Source: Balneolaceae bacterium (GTDB lineage: Bacteria > Bacteroidota > Rhodothermia > Balneolales > Balneolaceae). From it: a stretch of DNA of 37,561 bases. A program made the position numbers and the translations under genes. This document shows positions 28,274-29,684 of the stretch, one piece after another (positions within the stretch are counted from its first letter, which is position 1; each line of letters starts with the position of its first letter). The notes under the pieces are model-generated. The model did no database searches. It had not been told where the DNA came from and saw only the letters and a list, made by a program, of their open reading frames with translations. The stretch lies in assembly GCA_007693395.1 (NCBI GenBank), contig REDS01000130.1, forward strand, positions 1 to 37,561, written 5' to 3'.

Positions 28274-28974
28274 TTATATCATCCACTTTACAATCAGTGC
28301 TACACTGATAGCAATTAAAAAGCTCAAAAGTGTGCCTACTATGATATATTCGGTTAACTTTCGGTCTTTTTCTCTTGTTAAATCACTAAAACGAAACACT
28401 GATTTTGCTGCTATTAGAAAACCTACCACTTGCAAATGTCCAGCTATAACTGAGATAAATACTAAAATACGTTCAAGTATACCAATATAGAGTCCGGCAC
28501 TGGATAAGATGAATTTTCTGTATTTAGCACTTCATCATTCCACTTACTCAAAACGTGTTGCATTATAAATGCAGTGGGATATGTTAAAAATATAAGGCCG
28601 GTAATGATTATCCAGAATCTCTCTCCTACTGCTGGCAATTGTATGGGTTCTAAAAACAGTTGCAGTGCTATAAAAATCATAACTACGTGTGCTATTTGAT
28701 CGGCAAAGAACCAGAATCTTGGTTTGTTTTTTTGGAACGTCAGCTTTATGCCATCAATCAGAAAGTGTGAAACTGTGATAAAGAGTGCCGCTTTCCAGAT
28801 TGTTGAATCCCAAGTAATTAACAGAATTAGTAGAAAGTGAATAATACTATGAATCAGCAGGTACGGTGATTTCCACTTTTTCTGCATTTTATTCTCTATC
28901 CACATTTTTGGCTGTAGCAGAAAGTCACCAATTATATGTGCTAATAGGAGTTTAGTAATAAGTTCTGTTTCCAC
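28274..28974 (-). pseudogene. DUF3307-family membrane protein with a one-base frameshift
   Basis: The gene starts at a GTG overlapping the satD stop region by 23 bp. It encodes LLLAHIIGDFLLQPKMW, the usual DUF3307 opening, and then several transmembrane helices. The frame ends early at 28462 after an unrelated 17-residue tail. One frame over, the expected rest of the protein continues (AGLYIGILERILVFISVIAG, then LREKDRKLTEYIIVG-like helices) to a TAA at 28274. The total length of 701 nt is one base short of 234 codons. Restoring one T in TCTTA near 28504-28509 would read SSLSSAGLYIG. So either a recent single-base deletion or an assembly/sequencing error is present. The family commonly pairs with SatD; its function is unknown. 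Confidence 0.8.
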
Positions 28975-29599
28975 TTCTATAGCCTGTTCGTTGCATTATT
29001 TTTTCACGATAGTACTGCTCTAATTCTATTATTTCGTAAATCGAGCCTCTTTTTATCCTGTCATTTACTGTGGATTGTGCTAAGCCTAATATCTCGGCAA
29101 TTTCTACTTGAGTTATGCCCGGTTTTCTGAACAGTAATTCCGCAGTTTCTGCTGTATTGCTCGTCCATGAGTTCATGATGATGAGCGCCAGTTTTAGCAT
29201 CATGTTTATTTCTTCATCGAATTCGGGCCAGTTTGTTTTTATGGCCATATTTACTTTTCGGCTTTTTATCTCATCAAGTAGTTTACCGGAAAATACAAAT
29301 GGCTCATCGTTTGATTCACTTACCCGATTTTCTTGTTGATAGGCATGCCCAATACCAATTGCTAACCGCACATCCAGGGCTGGTTTTTTTATTTTTTTTA
29401 TGATGCTTTTTATCAGAATTGCAAGGCGCAGGCTTTCTTCTGGTTCTGCGGTGAGCTGAAAGCTGTCTCCTCTGTATATTTCCCAGTCGTGTGGTGTTTC
29501 TCCTATTTCTGAGAACATATTTTTAAGCGGATCTAACCATATTGTTGCCAGATCTGCCTTTTGGGACTGTATGATATCTCCTGTTATGATACTAATCAT
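28952..29599 (-). CDS. SatD-family protein with C-terminal helix-turn-helix
   Basis: The 215-residue protein begins MISIITGDIIQSQKA and has IYRGDSFQL and VRLAIGIG, matching the SatD family, whose N-terminal fold resembles nucleotide cyclase-like domains. Residues about 161-185 (GITQVEIAEILGL, then AQSTVNDRIKRG) form a helix-turn-helix. The family was named from a secretion/acid-tolerance locus in streptococci, but its biochemical role is not established. It is encoded upstream of, and overlaps, a DUF3307 membrane protein, a recurrent pairing. Three copies of a palindromic element lie 8-85 bp upstream of its ATG, so autoregulation through the HTH is a natural hypothesis. Confidence 0.82.
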   Translation of the reverse strand: MISIITGDIIQSQKADLATIWLDPLKNMFSEIGETPHDWEIYRGDSFQLTAEPEESLRLAILIKSIIKKIKKPALDVRLAIGIGHAYQQENRVSESNDEPFVFSGKLLDEIKSRKVNMAIKTNWPEFDEEINMMLKLALIIMNSWTSNTAETAELLFRKPGITQVEIAEILGLAQSTVNDRIKRGSIYEIIELEQYYREKIMQRTGYRSGNRTYY

Positions 29600-29606
29600 A
29601 CAGGAA

Positions 29607-29684
29607 TATCGGTATTTATTTCGATATTTTCAATTTATCGTCTATTTTGTCGATATTTTATTTTTATCGGTATTTTAGACGATA
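29607..29684. promoter_or_regulatory. Operator-like array: three TATCG-N10-CGATA copies, 29-bp period
   Basis: Perfect inverted repeats TATCG-N10-CGATA occur at 29607-29626, 29636-29655 and 29665-29684. Copy starts are exactly 29 bp apart, and the linkers are nine bases with almost only A and T (TTTTCAATT and TTTTATTTT). Six alternating half-sites are therefore spaced 15, 14, 15, 14 and 15 bp centre to centre. The array fills the whole gap between the photolyase stop and the satD start, so the satD promoter must lie within it. Binding by SatD or another regulator is inferred. It is not a CRISPR: the unit is too short, with no variable spacers. Confidence 0.8.

Follow-up and report, generated by a model that had tools for sequence, protein, structure and literature searches.

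Upstream of satD in the window (the whole 37,561-nucleotide stretch of contig REDS01000130.1) lies a tandem array of palindromes through which SatD very probably controls itself and the adjacent membrane protein gene, judging from comparison of satD loci at the sequence level. Taken as a whole, it is quite likely that SatD binds this array cooperatively, that the satD-partner operon is autorepressed, and that the palm domain of SatD places the operon under nucleotide control.

The window contains three exact copies of TATCG-N10-CGATA (Table 1), repeated with the 29-bp period originally reported (copy starts at 29607, 29636 and 29665). The six half-sites alternate as described, at 15/14/15/14/15 bp (starts 29607, 29622, 29636, 29651, 29665 and 29680), and the array does fill the satD upstream region, occupying 78 bp out of the 86-bp gap between the end of the photolyase ORF (29686) and the satD ATG (29599), both on the minus strand. 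The description of the linkers as AT-only-like is correct for 29656-29664 (TTTTATTTT, AT-only) but not for 29627-29635 (TTTTCAATT), which includes one C. With at most one mismatch, 5 matches were found in the window against 0.67 expected, and none of 100 shuffles reached 5, excluding a chance origin of the array there.

Table 1. Features of the satD locus on contig REDS01000130.1.
Feature	Position	Strand	Remarks
Partner, conserved C-terminal domain, other frame	28274..28498	minus	AGLYIGILER...LTEYIIVGTLLSF
Partner (DUF3307 membrane protein)	28462..28974	minus	overlaps satD end; open frame shortened by frameshift in this MAG
satD	28952..29599	minus	N-terminal cyclase/palm-like domain (predicted), C-terminal HTH (PF16264, PF13412)
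SatD recognition helix, residues 175-184	29048..29077	minus	176, 177 and 180 covary with operator bases
Predicted satD promoter, TTGAAA-N17-GATATT	29605..29633	minus	consensus match and conservation
Operator copy 1, TATCG-N10-CGATA	29607..29626	.	nearest satD start; overlaps -10 of predicted promoter
Operator copy 2, TATCG-N10-CGATA	29636..29655	.	
Operator copy 3, TATCG-N10-CGATA	29665..29684	.	adjoins photolyase stop codon

The nearest named relatives are Balneolaceae MAGs (SatD 80-93% identical), in a group that takes in Rhodohalobacter. Orthologues in the genus have 2-5 operator copies at 29 bp, some of them weaker in L013. The wider survey covered 97 satD loci, mostly from Bacteroidota, that remained once redundancy was removed at 75% protein identity; the start codons of the SatD homologues were set by script. 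At least three palindromic copies at 28/29-bp spacing were found in 79 of these, compared to 0-6 loci with such a chain at each of the control spacings (20-26 and 30-45 bp). Sequence autocorrelation is strongest at 28, 29 and 56 and shows a lesser rise at 58. Among 388 control segments taken from the same loci, a three-copy chain occurs in one; only two control segments score highly, and both are displaced arrays before the partner gene. The 18 loci in which a three-copy chain was undetected mostly have two copies, and a few have none. In L039 there is no convincing array, and the partner gene looks broken too.

Other Bacteroidota satD genes are preceded by about three tandem palindromes whose sequence differs from that of the TATCG array, with half-sites such as TATCGG/CCGATA in Pedobacter and TATTCC/GGAATA or TATCAC/GTGATA in Flavobacteriaceae; TATAAG, TTAAACC, TGAAAC and ACAACC are found among further satD lineages. 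Phyla besides Bacteroidota are represented by a few plasmid records. Those from haloarchaea display the 29-bp period with different operator letters, and those from alphaproteobacteria (Sphingomonas, Agrobacterium) contain three copies at 28 bp with different letters again. No clear array was seen in the Segatella and Fusobacterium plasmid records inspected, and the Aerococcus SatD match has a different gene setting. The check originally suggested, a scan for such sites upstream of satD homologues, bears out the 28/29-bp architecture, which is widespread; the literal TATCG is confined to the genus plus certain other groups. What satD loci conserve is the architecture of the array, with the operator letters diverging by lineage.

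This divergence was compared with the SatD sequence, using 59 loci with a half-site starting TAT and relating the next three bases to every SatD column. The three columns with the highest z are D180 (12.7), T177 (6.7) and S176 (6.5), all located inside the modelled recognition helix (residues 175-184). When sequence pairs are stratified by how identical the remainder of the protein is, the same columns remain the top three, with z of 16.6 for residue 180, 9.8 for residue 176 and 7.3 for residue 177. Across 200 shuffles of the labels, the highest z reached by any column was 8.4, with a 95% point of 6.1, so that T177, alone of the three, lies below the null maximum. S-S-E at 176/177/180 pairs with CGG in 9/9 loci, with proteins down to 41% identical, NSG pairs with CGT in 4/4 loci, and DAK pairs with TCC (3 loci) or GCC (1 locus). 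In a leave-one-out assay, the triplet was predicted correctly from the three residues in 33/59 cases, even with ties resolved in favour of the most dissimilar protein. Taking the protein of highest overall identity instead gave 29/59, and variable columns drawn at random averaged 7.4 with a maximum of 25; as the alignment is the one used to pick the columns, this describes the code and does not validate it. SatD paralogues of the same genome have differing operators in the pairs inspected (L011/L029 in G004 and L014/L048 in G015).

The half-site letters thus track residues 176, 177 and 180 as direct SatD binding would predict. The proposal that the SatD HTH is the dimeric binder of the array gains support from both the 28/29-bp architecture at satD and the helix covariation, and binding of SatD to its own array is strongly supported by these sequence patterns. 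The operator ACAACC-N6-GGTTGT, at 29 bp, is common to the Bacteroidota locus L073 (2322-2368, satD strand) and the haloarchaeal L191 (1906-1952), and the SatD proteins of both have identical helix letters (QQAVSK).

The SatD protein of the window matches Pfam PF16264 across residues 5-187 (33.2 bits, compared to a gathering score of 29 bits). The AF2 model (pLDDT 94) suggests the N-terminus (approximately residues 1-125) adopts a palm/cyclase fold, with fold matches to GTP cyclohydrolase III (Z 9.5), Cas10 (9.3) and cyclases and GGDEF proteins (8-9); Foldseek concurs, with three matches at E < 0.001. D8 and D45 are invariant (97/97) and may form a metal-binding pair. The combination of the predicted fold and two invariant aspartates suggests nucleotide sensing by SatD. 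The GG[DE]EF signature is missing from SatD, residues 43-48 reading RGDSFQ. A viral scan and phage records yielded no SatD relative, and PADLOC returned weak matches only, mostly across the HTH region.

A gene for the partner is located directly downstream of satD in 167/173 loci (95/97 non-redundant), usually within 20 bp or overlapping, as detected with an iterated profile seeded by the DUF3307 protein of the window. The frameshift in the window copy (28274-28510, minus strand) could be either genuine or an artefact of assembly; the close relatives L006 and L098 have an intact partner of 232 aa. The DUF3307 N-terminal motif is found in about 68/95 partners, and 18 partners are shorter than 150 aa, so DUF3307 is not what the partners have in common. 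The common part is a C-terminal domain of approximately 80 residues (G..IG.LER ... GF..AAK...RF ... EY.L.GT..S), also found in haloarchaeal and alphaproteobacterial partners. Examples of this membrane domain are found in the partners that follow satD in L043 and L048, and at L189:2660-3076. None of the short partner forms tested reached the cut-off of any Pfam family, and the two tested against NCBIfam gave no match. The DUF3307 model has a mean pLDDT of 80 and no significant PDB match, and we therefore claim no fold for it. In L073 and L077 there is no array before satD; the satD-partner gaps are 199 and 123 bp, and two palindromes 29 bp apart lie between the genes, preceding the partner. This argues that the output governed by the array is partner expression.

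A site resembling the predicted satD promoter occurs in 12/14 genus orthologues, 34 (once 35) bp before the ATG, with GATAAT in L011; this distance implies a leaderless or nearly leaderless mRNA. In 12/14 orthologues the ATG-proximal operator copy extends over the spacer of this predicted promoter and partly over its -10, an overlap suggesting that the promoter is closed by bound SatD. In the proposed mechanism, the array would be SatD's own operator, with a SatD dimer placed on each 20-bp palindrome via the C-terminal HTH, and residues 180, 177 and 176 reading the three base pairs that vary in each half-site (TAT-xyz). A constant distance of 28 or 29 bp between copies would bring adjacent dimers into contact, and this fixed spacing points to an array that is filled cooperatively. 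The filled array would shut the promoter overlapping the copy nearest the start codon, and SatD would repress its own two-gene operon of satD and membrane-protein partner. The palm/cyclase-like domain would probably bind or make a metal-nucleotide ligand that alters DNA binding, with the operon opening on a nucleotide cue. We infer repression rather than activation, as well as the ligand and the role of the partner; the nature of the ligand is a guess from the predicted fold and the conserved aspartates.

The closest described analogue of the SatD array appears to be the operator pairs of HipB, which binds cooperatively and repressively at E. coli hipBA (PMC3376134, PMC3920265). HipB recognises four sites (TATCC-N8-GGATA), and in MG1655 the sites at -134/-106 and -67/-39 are exactly 28 bp apart within each pair. 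Both systems consist of tandem palindromes (HipB at 28 bp, SatD at 28/29, the window at 29), and HipB is an autorepressor of a two-gene operon, as proposed for SatD. The helices are alike (HipB GIKQATISN, SatD family GIKQNAVSN), and among PDB sequences the SatD profile matches HipB best, albeit weakly (E 0.0055 over 34 positions). In contrast, HipB, a small antitoxin, is paired with a kinase, whereas SatD combines a palm/cyclase-like domain with a membrane protein partner; HipB sites come in pairs, whereas SatD arrays are usually a single run of about three copies with letters varying by lineage. SatD is placed outside HipBA because its partner (DUF3307/membrane protein) is no HipA-type kinase. 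Class III nucleotide cyclases, GGDEF enzymes, the Cas10 palm and GTP cyclohydrolase III resemble the predicted fold of SatD residues ~1-125, whose two invariant aspartates are a candidate metal-binding pair; SatD differs from these proteins in that the palm is joined to an HTH and RGDSFQ replaces the GGDEF signature. At OR and OL of phage lambda, repressor dimers cooperatively occupy three adjacent operators overlying a promoter, much as proposed for the SatD array; the lambda sites differ in serving two repressors and, at OR, divergent promoters. In S. pyogenes, transposon screens class satD as essential, although 178/249 genomes have it and ~29% lack it (PMC11323703); this offers a lead, as it would be expected if satD restrains something harmful.

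Covariation informs on binding and is silent on its sign, and operator copies also reach upstream of the predicted -35. SatD could thus bind the array as an activator of the operon, perhaps one that depends on a ligand. We consider this unlikely, as the copy nearest the ATG lies across the predicted spacer and part of the -10 in 12/14 orthologues and the similar HipB array represses (PMC3376134, PMC3920265). Much less likely still is that the array is read by another DNA-binding protein and that SatD is adjacent by happenstance. Operators can be read by regulators encoded elsewhere, but here the SatD positions best associated with the operator letters are those of the recognition helix, and the array accompanies satD across phyla with unrelated operator sequence.

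Tandem repeats with inverted halves could also belong to a mobile element, as its iterons or its partition site, or act as a terminator of the upstream photolyase gene. All three can be given hardly any credence: operator letters covary with the SatD helix, and the array is found with satD in the chromosomes of many families. The arms are 5-6 bp with 8-10 nt between, and the terminator was rejected, as no terminator-like site was found. Autorepression by array-bound SatD is the reading we favour.

Full-text searches, with most subscription journals outside their scope, turned up no described operator for the SatD family, almost nothing on the SatD family or DUF3307, and nothing on PF16264. The proposed model offers a first testable function for SatD (PF16264) and its neighbour DUF3307, and the array suggests that what is controlled is a membrane domain for which Pfam has no name. 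The satD loci also constitute a natural experiment in DNA recognition, with one array geometry, many operator sequences and three residues covarying with three bases, making the recognition code of the SatD HTH directly testable. More tentatively, SatD and its membrane partner could form a two-gene module, not previously described, that serves nucleotide signalling or resembles toxin-antitoxin systems and is spread over Bacteria and Archaea. Here, a palm-domain autorepressor would sense or make a nucleotide and release a membrane effector, on an array of fixed geometry whose specificity diverges via three helix residues so that paralogues avoid cross-talk.

Elsewhere in the source genome, six other TATCG-N10-CGATA matches were found, compared to four for a reversed control pattern. 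All six are single and 5/6 lie inside ORFs; with numbers close to the control, these are read as chance and a wider regulon was rejected. A search for paired sites in 40 relatives located nearly all at satD, with extra sites in G015, G011 and G004 and a single match in G044. Away from satD, two full TATCG-N10-CGATA sites at 29 bp occur in the relatives L178 (2488-2536) and L179 (2484-2532), and one site plus a half-site at 29-bp spacing in a third, L180 (2554). Those in L178 come just after an ftsH-like gene.
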